A stretch of DNA of 64,000 nt from positions 186,001-250,000 of the forward strand of contig JACQZU010000014.1 in NCBI GenBank assembly GCA_016213735.1, given 5' to 3'. Below are positions 50,903-59,852 of this stretch, in pieces (the stretch's first letter is position 1; each line of letters opens with the position of its first letter). The notes below the pieces were generated by a model, which was given only the letters and a program-made list of their open reading frames with translations, had not been told where the DNA came from and did not search any database. This DNA comes from Acidobacteriota bacterium. Lineage in GTDB: Bacteria > Acidobacteriota > Holophagae > Holophagales > Holophagaceae. The translations under genes were made by a program, and so were the position numbers.

Positions 50903-51444
50903 GACGGATCGCCCCCCTCCTTCTGACCGTGGCCCTGGGGGCCCAGGAGCCCGCCACAGTGGGCCTCCAACTCCGGGGAAACTTCCCTTCGGACAACCTG
51001 AAGGACGCCGTGGGCGGGAAGGCGGGCTTCGGCGCCAGTCTTGGCGCGGAATCCGAACTGGAAGAGGCCTGGCGGGGGCGTGTGGTTCTCGGCTACGACG
51101 CTTTCGGTCCCGGGACCTACCAGGATCAGAGCGGGCGCCGCGGCAAGGTCTCGTCCAGCCACCTGAGCATTGAGGTCGTGCGGATGATCGGCCAGGAGGG
51201 CCGGCACGGCTTCATGGGGCCCTACGTGGTCCTCGGGGCCGGAGCCTACGGGTGGGGGGTGACCACCTCGGATTCGGCCGCGGGCATTTCGGTGACCCGC
51301 CGGGTGATCCACCTGGGCGGCTCCTTTGGATTCGGTTACCGATTTTCGCCCAGCTGGGACTTGGAAGTCCGCGTCACCGGCGGCAGGGTGGACCCCCAAT
51401 TCCTGGCGTCCTATCTTTCCCTCGGGATGACGTTCCGGTTTTGA
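50899..51444 (+). CDS. Probable outer-membrane beta-barrel protein
   Basis: 181 residues. A short signal-peptide-like N-terminus (MRRIAPLLLTVALGAQ) is followed by alternating hydrophobic beta-strand patterns (VGLQLRGNF, VVLGYDAFG, YVVLGAGAYGWG, SFGFGYRF, SLGMTFRF). It ends in Phe (MTFRF), a typical BamA recognition residue. The size suggests an eight-strand barrel. Coupled to kdsC and next to the Ig-repeat lipoprotein. Confidence 0.8.
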   Translation: MRRIAPLLLTVALGAQEPATVGLQLRGNFPSDNLKDAVGGKAGFGASLGAESELEEAWRGRVVLGYDAFGPGTYQDQSGRRGKVSSSHLSIEVVRMIGQEGRHGFMGPYVVLGAGAYGWGVTTSDSAAGISVTRRVIHLGGSFGFGYRFSPSWDLEVRVTGGRVDPQFLASYLSLGMTFRF

Positions 51445-51527
51445 AGAACTGGGCACGAACTGCCCGAAAGGTGATTGAGGTGAAGGCGCGGAACTTGAGT
51501 CCCCTGGGTCCTGACCTGGGTGCTACG

Positions 51528-53102
51528 GTGCGCAACCTCATCGCTCTCACATTCCTGGCGGTTCTCCTTGGATGCGCCGGCGGTTCCGACCTGGTCCAGG
51601 CCGGGGGCAGCGTCACGGTCACGGTGGATCCCTCCACGGTGATCCTCACACCGGGGGGCACCCAGTTGTTTTCGGCCCGGGTGACCGGAGCCGCCAACGC
51701 GGGCGTGACCTGGTCCGTCACGGGCAGCGGTGGGGGAACCTTCACGGGCAGCACGGGCCTCTACACGGCGCCCTCGACCCCGGGAGAGTTCACCATCGTC
51801 GCCACGAGCCAGGCGGACGCCACCAGGGCCGGGGTGGCCAAGGCCGTGGTGGCCGCCCCCCTCACGGTCACCGTGAGCCCCAAGAGCGTGACCCTCAAGC
51901 CCGGAGCCACCCAGCAGTTCAGTGCCTCCGTGGCCGGGAGCCCGAACAAGGGCGTGACCTGGTCAGTGCTCGGGGCGGGTTCGGGGAGCTTCTCCGGGAC
52001 CACGGGCCTCTATACAGCCCCAAGCGCTTACGGCACCTACACCGTGGTGGCCACCTCCCAGGCGGATCCGAGCCGCAGCGACACCGCCACGGTGGTGGTG
52101 GGAGACGCCATCAGGGTCACCATTTCACCCAGCATCACCTCCGTCCTCCCCGGGGGAAGCGCCACATTCACCGCCTCGGTCACCGGGACGGCCAACACGT
52201 CGGTGGACTGGAGCGTGGAGAGCCCGGCCAACGGCTGCACCATCGACAGCACGGGACGGTTCACCGCCTCCAGCTTTCCAGGCGCCTACACGGTCCGTGC
52301 GGTGTCCCGGGAACTTCCCACGGCCCAAGGCTTTGCCCAGGTCCAGGTCAGTGACATCCACCTTGCCCTGGAGCCTCGATCCGTCACGCTCGACCAGGGC
52401 CAGACCCAGCTCTTCACCCCCACCCTCACCGGCACCAGCAACCTCCAGGTGGATTGGCAGGTCCTGGGAAGCGCGGCCACCGTCCGGCAGACAGGCCCCT
52501 ACCTTTTCACGGCGCCCGCCAAGGCCGGCCGGGTGGTCCTCCAGGCCACCAGCGCGGCGTCCTCCTTGGCCAGCGACCGGGCCACCATCGACGTCAACCC
52601 GGTGGCCGTGGCCGTCACCCCTGGCCCGGGGGTACTGGTGGCCGCCAAGGGCGTGGTGCCGTTCTCCGCCCGGGTGACCGGGACCACGACTCCGGGAGTC
52701 AAGTGGAGCGTGCTGTCGGGCGGGGCCGGGGGAACCATCAACGCCGCCGGTGTCTACACCGCCCCCACGGGCCCGGGCAGCGACACGGTCCAGGCCTCCG
52801 CGGCGGGTGACTCCTCGGCCACCGCCACCGTGGTGGTGACGGTGGGACTGATCACCATCACCCCCGCCGCCCCTCCCGCCATCCACCCGGGCCAGAACAT
52901 GATCTTCAGCGCCCTGGTGGTCGGCACCAGCGACCCCGGGGTGTTCTGGAGCGCCTTCGCCTCCAACCTCCAGCTGGATCCCAGCCCGATTTCAGCGACG
53001 GGGAATTTCATTGCCCCGGCGGAACTCGGGGTGTACCGGATCCGGGCCACGAGCGTGGTCAACCCGGCCCTTTTCGCGGAAGTACAGATCACGGTGAATT
53101 GA
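51528..53102 (+). CDS. Lipoprotein with six bacterial Ig-like repeats
   Basis: 524 residues from GTG 51528, chosen because the first 20 residues form a lipoprotein signal with a lipobox (LAVLLGCAGG); GTG at 51480 is an alternative. Six repeats of about 80-85 residues follow, each with a T-x-P...L.PGGTQQFSA start, a GVTWSV core and a TGLYTAPSxPGxYTV end. The pattern is BIG2/Ig-like, found in surface adhesins and carbohydrate-binding modules. The domain has no catalytic part. Confidence 0.88.
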   Translation: MRNLIALTFLAVLLGCAGGSDLVQAGGSVTVTVDPSTVILTPGGTQLFSARVTGAANAGVTWSVTGSGGGTFTGSTGLYTAPSTPGEFTIVATSQADATRAGVAKAVVAAPLTVTVSPKSVTLKPGATQQFSASVAGSPNKGVTWSVLGAGSGSFSGTTGLYTAPSAYGTYTVVATSQADPSRSDTATVVVGDAIRVTISPSITSVLPGGSATFTASVTGTANTSVDWSVESPANGCTIDSTGRFTASSFPGAYTVRAVSRELPTAQGFAQVQVSDIHLALEPRSVTLDQGQTQLFTPTLTGTSNLQVDWQVLGSAATVRQTGPYLFTAPAKAGRVVLQATSAASSLASDRATIDVNPVAVAVTPGPGVLVAAKGVVPFSARVTGTTTPGVKWSVLSGGAGGTINAAGVYTAPTGPGSDTVQASAAGDSSATATVVVTVGLITITPAAPPAIHPGQNMIFSALVVGTSDPGVFWSAFASNLQLDPSPISATGNFIAPAELGVYRIRATSVVNPALFAEVQITVN

Positions 53103-53884: not shown

Positions 53885-54802
53885 CTAGCCCACCTGCGAC
53901 TCGCAGGCCTGCAGGGTGTTCTTCATGAGGCCTGCGATGGTGAGAGGACCCACCCCCCCCGGAACGGGGGTCACCGCCGAGGCCACGGCCATGGCCTCGG
54001 CGAAGCGCACGTCCCCGCACAGCACCCAGCCGCGTTCCTCCACGGCCTTGAGCTTGGCCGGGTCGGCCTGGAAGATCCGCCGGGCCAGGACCGGGTCTTC
54101 CACCCGGTTGATCCCCACGTCCACCACCACCGCCCCGGGCTTGATCCAGGAGCCTTCCACAAGGCCCGGCCGGCCGACGGCCGCCACCAGGAGGTCCGCC
54201 TGGGCGCAGACCGCCGGAAGATCCCGCGTGCGGCTGTGGGCGATGGTCACCGTGGCGTGCTGCTCCAGAAGCATGAGGGCCATGGGTTTGCCCACGATCT
54301 CGCTGCGGCCGAGCATGACGGCGTGGCGGCCCTTCAGCTCCACCCCGTGGGCGGCCAGCATGTGCATGCACGCGCTGGGCGTGCAGGGACGCAGGGCGGG
54401 GAGGCCCTCCAGGAGCAGGCCCTGGTTCACGGGGTGGAAGCCGTCGACGTCCTTGGCCGGGCTGATGCGGTGCAGGGCCGCCTTGGCATCGAGATGGCCG
54501 GGCAGGGGGAGCTGGACGAGGATCCCGTCCACCTCGGGATCCTCGTTGAGCCTGTCGACCAGGGCTTCAAGTTCCGCCTGGGGCAGTTCGGCCGAGGGGC
54601 GGAATTCCAGGGAGCGGATGCCGGTCTGGGCGCAGGCCTTCACCTTCCCTCGAACGTAGACCTGGGAGGCGGGATCTTCTCCGACGAGGATCACAGCCAG
54701 GCAGGGGGGGCGCCTTCCCGCCGCCGTCCGGGCGGCCACCGCCGCCTGGACCTCGGCGACCATGCACTCTGCGTGTGCCTTGCCATCCAGGACCTGTGCC
54801 AT
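53885..54802 (-). CDS. folD: Bifunctional methylenetetrahydrofolate dehydrogenase/cyclohydrolase
   Basis: 305 residues. Signatures: VGEDPASQVYVRGKVKAC (with catalytic Y and K), VDGILVQLPLP, PAKDVDGFHPVN, GRSEIVGKPMALMLL and TPVPGGVGPLTIAGLMKNT. It interconverts methylene- and formyl-THF for purine and one-carbon metabolism. Convergent with the chalcone isomerase-like gene; divergent from rimP. Confidence 0.97.
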   Translation of the reverse strand: MAQVLDGKAHAECMVAEVQAAVAARTAAGRRPPCLAVILVGEDPASQVYVRGKVKACAQTGIRSLEFRPSAELPQAELEALVDRLNEDPEVDGILVQLPLPGHLDAKAALHRISPAKDVDGFHPVNQGLLLEGLPALRPCTPSACMHMLAAHGVELKGRHAVMLGRSEIVGKPMALMLLEQHATVTIAHSRTRDLPAVCAQADLLVAAVGRPGLVEGSWIKPGAVVVDVGINRVEDPVLARRIFQADPAKLKAVEERGWVLCGDVRFAEAMAVASAVTPVPGGVGPLTIAGLMKNTLQACESQVG

Positions 54803-54853: not shown

Positions 54854-54882
54854 TTGAGTTTTTCCACCCTGGGCGGTAGACT
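54854..54882 (+). promoter_or_regulatory. Promoter of the rimP-nusA-infB operon
   Basis: TTGAGT (54854-54859) and TAGACT (54877-54882) with a 17-nt spacer. Transcription would start near 54889, giving a leader of about 83 nt that contains the terminator at 54932-54960. Confidence 0.7.
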
Positions 54883-54931
54883 GCAGGGCTGAATTCTTCC
54901 TCTGCCGACCCCGTGCGCGGGGAGGCTTCTC

Positions 54932-54960
54932 CAGGTGGGTTCGTCCCACCTGTTTTTTTT
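54932..54960 (+). terminator. Intrinsic terminator in the leader of rimP-nusA-infB (possible attenuator)
   Basis: CAGGTGGG, loop TTCGT, CCCACCTG, then eight T. The hairpin ends 11 nt before the rimP ATG and is downstream of the likely operon promoter, so it would interrupt the operon transcript. Small upstream stems (CCCCG-TGCG-CGGGG and GGAG-GCTT-CTCC) may form alternatives. Confidence 0.9.
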
Positions 54961-54971
54961 CCCCGGACCGG

Positions 54972-55532
54972 ATGGACCTGAAGAAACTCCAGAACCCCCT
55001 CGAGACCCAGCTGGCCCGCCTGGGCTACGAACTCGTGCTCGTCGAGGCCGCCGCCCAAGGGCGGGACAAGGTTCTCCGCCTCTTCGTGGATCACCTGGGG
55101 GCCGCCGAGAGTGGCCGGCCTGTGACGTTGGACGACTGCGTGGCGGTGAACGAGGGGCTTCTAGCCTGGCTGGACGTGGAATTCCCGGGGCTCCGGGAGG
55201 AGATGGGGCTGGAAATCTCCAGCCCCGGCCTGGATCGCCCCCTGGTCCGCCCGGCCCATTTCGAGCGATTCCGGGGGCGGCTCTGCCGAATCCAGACCAC
55301 CCGGCCTCTCAACGGCCAGAAGCGCTTCAAGGGCTGGATCCTCGGGGCGGACGCGGAGAGCGTCCAGATCGAGGAGGACGGGGCGCTGAAGACGGTCCCC
55401 CTGGCCGAGATCCACAAGGCCCGCCTGGCTCCCTTCGAGGAAGAGGGCGCGCCCAAACCCAAGTTCGCGCCGGCGGCCGCCGGCCGGGCCATCGAAGGCG
55501 GGGCGGAGAAAAGCCCCGGCAAGGAGGATTGA
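54972..55532 (+). CDS. rimP: Ribosome maturation factor RimP
   Basis: 186 residues. N-terminal RimP domain (LEtQLARLGYELVLVE, RLFVDHLG) with LDDCVAVNEGL and EISSPGLDRPL, the family signature, then an SH3-like C-terminal domain (about 92-150). It binds the 30S precursor. The C-terminus has a basic/Ala-rich extra tail. No Shine-Dalgarno is seen in the short gap after the terminator. Translation of nusA begins 3 nt later. Confidence 0.95.
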   Translation: MDLKKLQNPLETQLARLGYELVLVEAAAQGRDKVLRLFVDHLGAAESGRPVTLDDCVAVNEGLLAWLDVEFPGLREEMGLEISSPGLDRPLVRPAHFERFRGRLCRIQTTRPLNGQKRFKGWILGADAESVQIEEDGALKTVPLAEIHKARLAPFEEEGAPKPKFAPAAAGRAIEGGAEKSPGKED

Positions 55533-55535
55533 ACC

Positions 55536-56861
55536 ATGGCAACCGTGGCGACTTCGTTTTTCGACAGCGTGAAGATGATCGCGGCCGAAAAGGGCATTCC
55601 CGAGGAGGACGTGTTCAAGGCCGTGGAGGAGGCCCTGGTCAAGGCCGCCGAGAAGTATTTCCAGGCCCAGGATTTCTACGGCAACTTCCAGACCCAGATG
55701 GATCGCGAGACGGGCGAGTTCCACGTCTACGCCCTGAAGCAGGTCATCGGGGAGGTAGAGGAACCCGACCTGGAGATCAGCCTGGCGGAGGCCAAGGAAC
55801 TGGACCCCAACGCCGAGGAGGGGGATACGCTCTGGCTGCCCCAGGACACCTCCCAGCTCGGCCGGATCGCCGCCCAGGCGGCCAAGCAGGTGCTGGTCCA
55901 GAAGGTCCGGGAGGCCGAGCGGGAGCGCATCTTCACTGAATTCGCCGACCGGATGGGCGAAGTGGTCGTGGCCGAGGTGAAGCGCTTCGAGAAGAGCGCC
56001 ATCATCCTGGAGATCGACCGGGTGGAGGCCATGCTCCGACGGAGCGAGGCCCTGCGCGGGGACCGCTTCGACAAGGGCCAGCGCATCCGCGTCGTCATCG
56101 TCTCGGTGGACAAGAGCGCCAAGGACCCCCAGGTGCAGGTGAGCCGCACCGACCCCAGGCTGCTGATCAAGCTCTTCGAGAACGAGGTGCCCGAGATTCA
56201 CGACGGCACCGTGGTGATCCGCAGCTGCGTCCGGGAGGCCGGGGACCGGGCCAAGGTGGCCGTCCACAGCCTTGATCCCGACGTGGATCCCGTCGGGGCC
56301 TGCGTGGGCCTCAAGGGAAGCCGGGTCCAGGCCATCATCCGTGAGCTCAAGAACGAGAAGATCGACATCGTCCGCTACGACGAGGAAATCTCCCGCTTCA
56401 TCGCGAACGCCCTCAATCCCGCCAAGGCCATCCGGGTGCAGATCACCGATCTCGAGAACCGCCGGGTCGAGGTGGTGGTGGACGACGAGCAGCTCAGCGT
56501 GGCCATCGGGAAGCGGGGGCAGAACGTGCGGCTCGCCGCCAAGCTGACGGGCTGGAACATCGATGTCCGGAGCGAACTCGAGAAGCGCCGGGAGGCCGAA
56601 GTGGCCATGGGGAACATGCTTCCCGAACCCGCGGAAGCTTCCGCCGAGGCCGAGGTGCCAGCCGGCTCGACCCTTCGGGAGGAACTGGGGGCCATCGACG
56701 GGCTGGATGACAACATGCTGGCGGTCCTCGGGCAGGCCGGCTTCCAGGACGCGAAATCCCTTTACACTGTCACGGTCGAGCAGCTGATGACCCTGGAGGG
56801 CATGACCCAGGATCTGGCCTTCCGGCTTTTCGACGCGGTCCACGAGCGCTTCGGCGGCTGA
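55536..56861 (+). CDS. nusA: Transcription elongation/termination factor NusA
   Basis: 441 residues, with AGGAGG inside the end of rimP. N-terminal RNA-polymerase-binding domain (about 1-130), S1 domain (about 133-200), two KH domains (about 230-345; GACVGLKGSRVQAI, VAIGKRGQNVRLA) and a C-terminal HhH-type module (about 375-440, LREELGAIDGLDDNML). Shorter than E. coli NusA (495) because it has one, not two, C-terminal repeats. It controls pausing, termination and antitermination, so it may act on its own leader terminator. Confidence 0.97.
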   Translation: MATVATSFFDSVKMIAAEKGIPEEDVFKAVEEALVKAAEKYFQAQDFYGNFQTQMDRETGEFHVYALKQVIGEVEEPDLEISLAEAKELDPNAEEGDTLWLPQDTSQLGRIAAQAAKQVLVQKVREAERERIFTEFADRMGEVVVAEVKRFEKSAIILEIDRVEAMLRRSEALRGDRFDKGQRIRVVIVSVDKSAKDPQVQVSRTDPRLLIKLFENEVPEIHDGTVVIRSCVREAGDRAKVAVHSLDPDVDPVGACVGLKGSRVQAIIRELKNEKIDIVRYDEEISRFIANALNPAKAIRVQITDLENRRVEVVVDDEQLSVAIGKRGQNVRLAAKLTGWNIDVRSELEKRREAEVAMGNMLPEPAEASAEAEVPAGSTLREELGAIDGLDDNMLAVLGQAGFQDAKSLYTVTVEQLMTLEGMTQDLAFRLFDAVHERFGG

Positions 56862-56903: not shown

Positions 56904-59852
56904 ATGATCCGCATCAACCAGTTCGCCAAAGACATGGGCGTCTCCAACCAGGAGGTCATCGAGCTCCTGGAGAAGCGCCTCGGCGTGCCCGGAAAGAGCC
57001 ACAGCTCGAACATCGGGGACGACCTGGCCCAGCAGCTCCGCCGGATCCTGGAGGGCAAGGGCAAGGCCGAAGAGGACGAGATCCCCCTGGCGCGCCACAA
57101 GCCCACGGCCACCGTGAAGGTGGTCAAGGCGAGCCCCAAGCCCCCGGAACCTGCCCCTGAGGCACCGCCGCCCCCGAAACCCGCGGTGGTCCTGCTCAAG
57201 AAGGCCGAGCCCAAGCCGGCGGTGGAGGAGCCCCGGGAAGAGGAGGCCCAGGCCCCGGCCCCGCAGCCCGAGGCCGCCGCGCCCCCGCCGCCGACCCCGC
57301 CCGTACCTTCCGCCGCGGCCCCTGCACCGCAGGCCCCCGCCTTCTCCCGACTCCGGGTCTCGGAGGAGGCGCCCCCCGCGCCCCCCAAACCTTCGGAGCC
57401 TGCCCGCTACATCCAGCTTCCTCCTGCCGCGCCAGCCGCCCCCAAGGGAAAGGCCGAGCCCGGAGCCAAACCGATGGTGCACCGCCCCGGGCCTTCGGGC
57501 CAGGTGCAGCGCTCAGGAATGCCCCAGCCGGAGAAGACCGTCCTTCCCATGGCTTCCAACACGGGAAAAGGGGAGGTCCTGCGCCACGATCCGACGCCGC
57601 CCGTGGCCTCCTCCAGGCTCTCGGCCCTTCCGGCCATTTCCGAGCTTCGCCCCGACCAGGGTTTCTCCCGGATCAAGATGTCGGACACGCCCGCCCCCGC
57701 GCCTCGTCCATCCCAGCCGGCCCGCTACATCCAGCTGCCTCCCCAGCGCACCGGAGGCGGTCCGAGCCGGGGCCCAGGCGGCCCGGGGCGTCCCGGGGGT
57801 CCGGGCCGTCCCGGCATGGGCCCCCGCCCGGGTGGGCCAGGCCGCCCCGGAATGGGGCCCCGTCCCGGGGGACCCGGCCGTCCCGGCATGGGCCGTCCTG
57901 GCATCGGGGGGGCTCCAGGTCCCGTGGATCCCAACGCGGGGAAGGGTCCCGGCCGGGGGCCGCAGCACGGCAAGAAGAAGGGCAAGAAGGAGCGCAAGGA
58001 GCAGCAGGAGCTCGAACTCAAGCTTCGCGCCCCGCGTTCCCGCGCCCAGGTCATCGCCACCGAATTCATCCAGGACGAGATCGGCATCGTCATGCTCAGC
58101 GAGGGCGTGACCGTGAAGGAACTCGCGGAGAAGTGCAACCGTCCGGCCAAGGACGTCATGGCCAAGCTTCTGCACCGGGGCATTTTCGCCACCATCAACC
58201 AGCCCCTGGACCCGGAACTGGCCAAGGACATCGCACGGGAATTCGGCTACCTCGCGGACATCGTCTCCTTCGAGGAGGACGTCCAGATGAGCGCCGACGA
58301 GTCCAGCGAGTTGCAGGGAGAGAAGCTGCCCCGGCCGCCCGTGGTCACCATCATGGGCCACGTGGACCACGGCAAGACCTCGCTCCTTGACGCCATCCGG
58401 AAGACCAAGGTGGCCGCCGGCGAGGCTGGAGGCATCACCCAGCACATCGGCGCGTACCACGTGGACGTGCGGGATCCCAACACCGGCGAGCCCCGGCAGG
58501 TCGTGTTCCTGGACACCCCCGGTCACGAGGCCTTCACCAAGATGCGCGCCCGGGGCGCCAAGGTCACCGACATCGCCATCCTCGTGGTGGCTGCGGACGA
58601 CGGCGTCATGCCCCAGACCGTGGAATCCATCAACCACGCCAAGGCCGCGGAAGTCCCCATCGTGGTGGCGGTGAACAAGATCGACAAGCCCGGCGCCAAC
58701 CCGGACAAGGTCCAGCAGGGCCTGCTTCAGCACGGCATCCAGACGGAAACCTTCGGCGGCGACGTCCCCAGCGTGAACGTTTCGGCCAAGGCCCGCACGG
58801 GCCTGGACGAGCTGCTGGAGACCCTGCTCCTGGTGGCCGACCTGAAGGAGCTGAAGGCGATCTACGACTGCCCCGCCGCGGGCAGCATCCTCGAGGCCCA
58901 GCTGGACCGGGGCCGGGGTCCCGTGGCCACGGTGCTTGTGCAGCAGGGCACCCTCAAGGTGGGCGAGGTCTTCGTGGCCGGGGCCACGATGGGCCGGGTC
59001 CGCGCCCTGTTCGACGACCGGGGCGAGCGCATCACGGAGGCGCGGCCTTCCACCGCCGTCCAGATCCTCGGCTTCGAGGAAGTCCCCTCCTCGGGCGACA
59101 ACTTCCAGGTGGTGGAGGACGAATCCAAGGGCCGCCAGATCGTCGGCTTCCGCCAGGAAAAGGCCCGTGCCTCCCAGCTGGCCAAGCAGCGGGTCACCCT
59201 GGAGAACATCTTCAGCACCCTCAAGGAAGGCCAGATCAAGGAACTCCCCCTCATCGTCAAGGGCGACACGCAGGGCTCCGTGGAGTCCATCGTGGGCAGC
59301 CTGGAGCGGCTGGGCACCGAACGGGTCCGGGTCCGCATCATCCATTCGGCCCCTGGCACCGTCACGGAAAACGACGTGCTCCTGGCCGAGGCCTCCAAGG
59401 CCATCGTCATCGCCTTCCAGGTGAAGGCGGAGCGGAAGGCCGAGGAGATGGCCGAGGAGGAGGGCGTGGACCTCCGCTTCCACGACATCATCTACAAGGT
59501 CACCGAGGAGGTCTCCGCGGCCATGCTGGGCCTCCTGGAAGCCACCATCAAGGAGACCATCCAGGGCCAGGGCGAGGTCAGGCAGGTCTTCAAGATTGGC
59601 AAGGTGGCCATCGCCGGCTCCTTCATCCACGAGGGCCGCGTCCAGAAGTCCCACCAGGCCCGGGTGAAGCGCGGCGGGGAGGTCCTCTGGGAGGGCGCCA
59701 TCAAGAGCCTCAAGCGCTTCAAGGAGGACGTCTCCGAGGTCAAGTTCGGCCTGGACTGCGGCATCGGCCTGGACGGCTTTGACGAAGTCCGCGAAGGGGA
59801 CACGCTCGAATTCTTCACGCGCGAGAAGGTGGCCGCCACCACCCTCGGATGA
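56904..59852 (+). CDS. infB: Translation initiation factor IF-2
   Basis: 982 residues, long for the family. IF2-N domain (1-52), then a Pro/Ala-rich and Gly/Pro/Arg-rich linker (about 75-350; [18 protein letters not shown]-like tandem units), a second IF2-N domain (about 395-450), the G domain (GHVDHGKTS from about 481, [15 protein letters not shown]) and the C-terminal beta-barrel domains. It places fMet-tRNA on the 30S subunit. The usual rbfA and truB do not follow; hpd does. Confidence 0.97.

Follow-up and report, generated by a model that had tools for sequence, protein, structure and literature searches.

The leader of the rimP-nusA-infB operon in a bacterium of the family Holophagaceae (Acidobacteriota) very probably carries a rimP-leader: a transcript of about 70 nt that would end in an intrinsic terminator and be read through in part, most likely under negative feedback by NusA. 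The anatomy of this element, its conservation, its uniqueness, its constant position and the identity of its core across phyla are directly established. The window, that is the whole stretch of DNA analysed, comprises 64,000 nt (positions 186,001–250,000 of contig JACQZU010000014.1, assembly GCA_016213735.1) of a genome of 3.6 Mb in 28 contigs.

Promoter and terminator upstream of rimP

The operon and the gene folD diverge, and a promoter and a hairpin are found in the gap between them (Table 1). As folD is divergent and there is no upstream plus-strand gene, the hairpin cannot serve as the terminator of an upstream gene. It is a perfect stem of 8 bp, in DNA letters CAGGTGGG (54932–54939)-TTCGT-CCCACCTG (54945–54952), and the run of eight T behind it ends 11 nt before the start codon of rimP; direct reading confirmed what an earlier note on this DNA had claimed. 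The promoter proposed in that note, TTGAGT-17-TAGACT, is likewise right in sequence and coordinates. It scores 8/12 against the sigma-70 consensus, which is under the cut-off of the scanner, and the motif TTGAGn-N16/17-TAnACT is kept in 42 of the 44 leaders of g3, the Geothrix genus, with a spacer of 17 nt in 40 leaders and of 16 nt in two.

The hairpin folds with -14.9 kcal/mol (z -5.9), and none of 200 shuffles was equally stable. Outside the window, a scan of 400 kb of this contig gave six T-tailed stems that were perfect over 7 bp or longer, and three Markov-1 shuffles yielded 0, 0 and 0. A looser consensus scan for terminators found three against 6.6 expected and is uninformative by itself; the hairpin at 54932–54960 was by far the strongest. 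With 8 bp and an uninterrupted T8 the terminator is strong.

Table 1. Features of the rimP-nusA-infB locus, in coordinates of the window.
Feature	Position	Strand	Basis and remarks
folD	53885..54802	-	Divergent neighbour; Pfam FolD
-35 element TTGAGT	54854..54859	+	Read from sequence; TTGAGn in 42/44 g3 relatives
-10 element TAGACT, 17-nt spacer	54877..54882	+	TAGACT in 39/42 g3 relatives having the promoter motif
AATTC, remnant of the family-wide 5'-end box	54892..54896	+	Alignment; degenerate in the window genome
Upstream stem-loop GCC-ga-CCCCG-tgcg-CGGGG-a-GGC	54904..54926	+	Fold and alignment; no U-run after it
Terminator hairpin CAGGUGGG-UUCGU-CCCACCUG, rimP-leader core GUGGG/CCCAC	54932..54952	+	Sequence, fold, relatives
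U-tract, eight T	54953..54960	+	Read from sequence
rimP	54972..55532	+	RimP_N, RimP C-terminal SH3 (Pfam); ATG at 54972
nusA	55536..56861	+	NusA_N, S1, KH domains (Pfam); proposed regulator
infB	56904..59852	+	IF-2 (Pfam)

Elsewhere in the window, a large plus-strand open reading frame (51252–53102) has a translation with repeated Ig-like/Big-type motifs (VTVSPKSVTLKPGATQQFSASV...) and probably encodes a secreted repeat protein.

Conservation within the family and the class

A search of 77 genomes of the family for the exact pattern GGTGGGTTCGNCCCACC of the hairpin gave a single match in each of 49, and every match is located on the contig of nusA, about 600 nt upstream of this gene; the reversed control gave 0 matches. 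Most of the 72 family leaders that were read have the hairpin in the corresponding position, with the end of the stem usually 16–41 nt before the start codon, and two further families of the class, f2 and f3, share it there. The earlier note had named lack of conservation in relatives as a finding that would speak against its reading, and the hairpin is conserved. For L003, L023, L054 and L061, four leaders of the family, the hairpin finder settled on a different stem. In the sequences of L023 and L054 the usual hairpin can be seen, in L061 it is damaged, and in the g4 leaders (L003 and L007) it is rearranged (GGGUGGGAAGUCCCUCCC).

Covariation in the stem, which the note had recommended as a check, is found at one level and is missing at another. 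Paired changes on both sides of the stem distinguish genera and families, namely GGAUGGG/CCCAUCC in g2, AAACGGG/CCCGUUU in g11, AGUGGG/CCCACU in f2 and GUGAGG/CCUCAC in f3-g17. They occur solely at this level; RNAalifold applied to the g3/g1 leaders returned an invariant stem and no covariation. In the NusA tree g2, g3 and g5 form one clade, and g4 and g6–g11 the other, weakly supported one (80/75); the genome of the window is placed on a branch of zero length, a probable artefact of the cutting of the pieces. The leaders of g11 (L057, L060–L062) and of g4 and g7–g10 are longer, with about 90–100 nt from the box described below to the end of the hairpin, and those of g11 contain further possible stems, for example TTGTA...TACAA.

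The leader upstream of the hairpin

Near the inferred transcription start most family leaders begin with TCAATTCGGCC, TTGAATTCGGCC or TTGAATCTGGCC, and the box at the 5' end which is common to the family reads AATTCGGCC or AATCTGGCC (leaders L003–L071). As most relatives carry the box close to this start, it could be taken as the seed of a small RNA that acts in trans and consists of the roughly 70 nt of leader left after termination. We regard this as extremely improbable, as the box is degenerate in the genome of the window itself. A search for the box as a repeated regulon element gave few other genomic matches, without obvious pattern.

Upstream of the terminator the earlier note had seen two small stems and had assigned to them a possible role as antiterminator or pause structures. 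Both stems exist, as alternatives to each other: GGAG/CTCC (54921–54932) overlaps the stem at 54904–54926, and the latter matches in position a variable CCCG...CGGG hairpin of the relatives. The role as antiterminator found no support. The fold of the leader 5' of the hairpin is no more stable than that of its shuffles (z 0.02), and a pairing of the 5' box with the linker or the 5' arm, for which G-U pairing looks plausible by eye, has a mean of -7.3 kcal/mol when the partners are matched by genome and -7.2 kcal/mol when they are swapped between genera (permutation P 0.44). With this one tested pairing no better than between genera, a classical termination/antitermination switch is highly unlikely, even though in the minimum-energy fold of one leader of the Geothrix genus the 5' arm of the terminator prefers a different partner. 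The same low probability applies to a leader peptide starting at the ATG within the box of the g3 leaders, since the distance from this ATG to rimP falls into all three frames (22/17/5) and other genera have no such ATG.

The hairpin core beyond the class

The core RGUGGG...CCC(A/G)C precedes rimP also in Clostridium, Selenomonadales and Gastranaerophilales, where the leaders contain AGAGTGGGT...ACCC(A/G)CTCT and a T-rich tail. When a GGG/CCC core and three further pairs are demanded, 66 of 72 family leaders, 10 of 15 other-class leaders and 19 of 34 distant leaders qualify, compared with 2.3%, 0.3% and 0.06% of the respective shuffles, whereby many sequences are closely related and the counts are not independent. 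The pair adjoining GGG/CCC is U-A in 72, U.G in 21 and C-G in two of these 95 leaders (kinship uncorrected), so that U occupies its 5' side in 93 of them, in Holophagaceae and Clostridium alike. As a lead, the retention of U opposite both A and G suggests that selection acts on the sequence of the arm and not on stability alone; the arm may be read as sequence, perhaps by NusA.

These observations also bear on an alternative, namely a fixed partial terminator which is not regulated and either reduces expression or shields the operon against upstream transcription. Such a device would agree with the strength of the hairpin, with its T8 and with the fact that no antiterminator was found. Nevertheless, we consider it improbable: there is nothing to insulate, given the divergent folD and the promoter in between, and the identity of the arm sequence across phyla exceeds the needs of a plain terminator.

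In several clostridial rimP leaders a second T-tailed hairpin (ACGCAAC...GTTGCGT-T5) is found just 3' of the GAGTGGG...CTCT hairpin (L226, L228–L230, L239–L241 and L249, from Clostridium and Bacillota).

Loss of the U-tract in sister genera

Genera g4, g8, g9 and g10, and g7 in two of its three genomes, keep the hairpin without a U-tract, and in g6 the U-tract is displaced. The leaders without U-tract are L003, L005, L007, L010, L023, L028, L034–L036, L040, L042, L069 and L089. A general loss of T-tailed terminators in these genomes is an incomplete explanation, as elsewhere the g9 genome still holds three and the g4 genome six T-tailed stems per 400 kb (small numbers). In leaders of the Geothrix genus, with TTTTTTGTTGTT, the distal part of the U-tract is interrupted in a manner reported for NusA-dependent terminators. 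We tentatively put forward, as a possible though rather doubtful extension, that a factor, probably NusA, recognises the 5' arm RGUGGG specifically by its sequence, and that the hairpins without U-tract in Holophagaceae (g4, g8–g10 and most of g7) would be factor-dependent pauses or terminators.

Comparison with known leaders

The earlier note knew of no such arrangement for this lineage. The control element itself was already described in 2010 as the rimP-leader, which was the most frequent predicted attenuator and is distributed across many bacteria (Naville & Gautheret 2010, PMC2965389). According to the same study, hardly any predicted attenuator of the Acidobacteriota has an assigned function. 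The published form consists of a GGGc(...)gCCC stem and a U-stretch, has no visible antiterminator and is situated 4–130 nt before rimP. The leader in the window shares with the general form (Figure 2b of that study) the terminator in the 5' UTR of rimP, with rimP as the first gene of rimP-nusA-infB, the lack of a visible antiterminator, and the GGG/CCC stem with G-rich 5' arm, C-rich 3' arm and U-stretch (GGUGGG/CCCACC and U8), the latter being class- and phylum-wide; its distance of 11 nt lies inside the published range. The inner c...g pair is different, as the window has U/U at this place and its relatives U-A or U.G. In f3-g18 of the same class it is C-G, and these relatives show exactly the published motif, GGGC...GCCC. 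The inner pair is printed in lower case in PMC2965389, and we take it as less conserved and not strictly defining. Holophagaceae further differ from the general form by the extra conserved 5' box and the linker.

Rfam family RF01770 (rimP) represents the gammaproteobacterial tandem form (PMC2965389, Figure 2a). With this form the window has in common a CCCg...cGGG stem before the GGG...CCC terminator; in contrast to it, the upstream stem in the window has no U-run. At the gathering cut-off of 47 bits the RF01770 covariance model had 0 matches in the window's own genome and, among the control genomes, matched in E. coli alone, and it found nothing at E<=1 in the own locus and eight relative loci. 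In E. coli K-12, rimP is preceded by CCCCGA-TTTA-TCGGGG-T6 and then GGGCTTTAGGCCC-T7, in agreement with the tandem form as published.

Attenuation by NusA as the favoured mechanism

Because the leader of the operon that encodes NusA has a promoter-proximal intrinsic terminator, conserved at the same spot, attenuation is the best reading of the element, as the earlier note had proposed. Its second proposal, feedback by NusA, stays the leading mechanism and has precedents: NusA was named the best candidate regulator of the rimP-leader (PMC2965389), and in B. subtilis a NusA-stimulated attenuation in the leader controls nusA expression (PMC12288461). Both systems share a nusA leader with a promoter-proximal intrinsic terminator, whereas the feedback was demonstrated in B. 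subtilis and is deduced here. The literature searched contained no RNA 5' or 3' ends and no read-through data for this lineage; what we infer is that RNA polymerase terminates here, what share of it does so, and that NusA regulates this step.

We suggest the following course of events. RNA polymerase would start near position 54889, synthesize about 70 nt and meet the hairpin, at which some complexes would terminate while the rest read through into rimP-nusA-infB. NusA bound to the polymerase would favour formation of the hairpin, pausing and termination. High NusA would thus lower and low NusA raise transcription of the operon, amounting to negative feedback.

Counted against this reading are the loss of the U-tract in several sister genera and the invariance of the stem inside g3. 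In addition, NusA may add little here, because NusA-dependent terminators of B. subtilis are typically suboptimal (PMC8060035) and the terminator in the window is stronger than these; judged from its sequence, the T8 terminator speaks for high basal termination and perhaps for a smaller effect of NusA. An attenuator with another regulator, be it RimP, IF-2, NusG or general conditions of growth rate and pausing, is an alternative of limited but real probability. RimP was also named as possible by Naville & Gautheret (PMC2965389), and NusG works together with NusA at many terminators (PMC8060035). In favour of NusA, it is encoded in the operon and is a known factor of intrinsic termination, and it reportedly controls its own gene by attenuation in B. 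subtilis.

The leader described here adds a group within the Acidobacteriota to the bacteria with this very widespread and poorly tested kind of attenuator. As natural leaders come with a U-tract or lack it, and have either U-A or U.G at one position of the stem, the old question of what reads the rimP-leader becomes directly testable.
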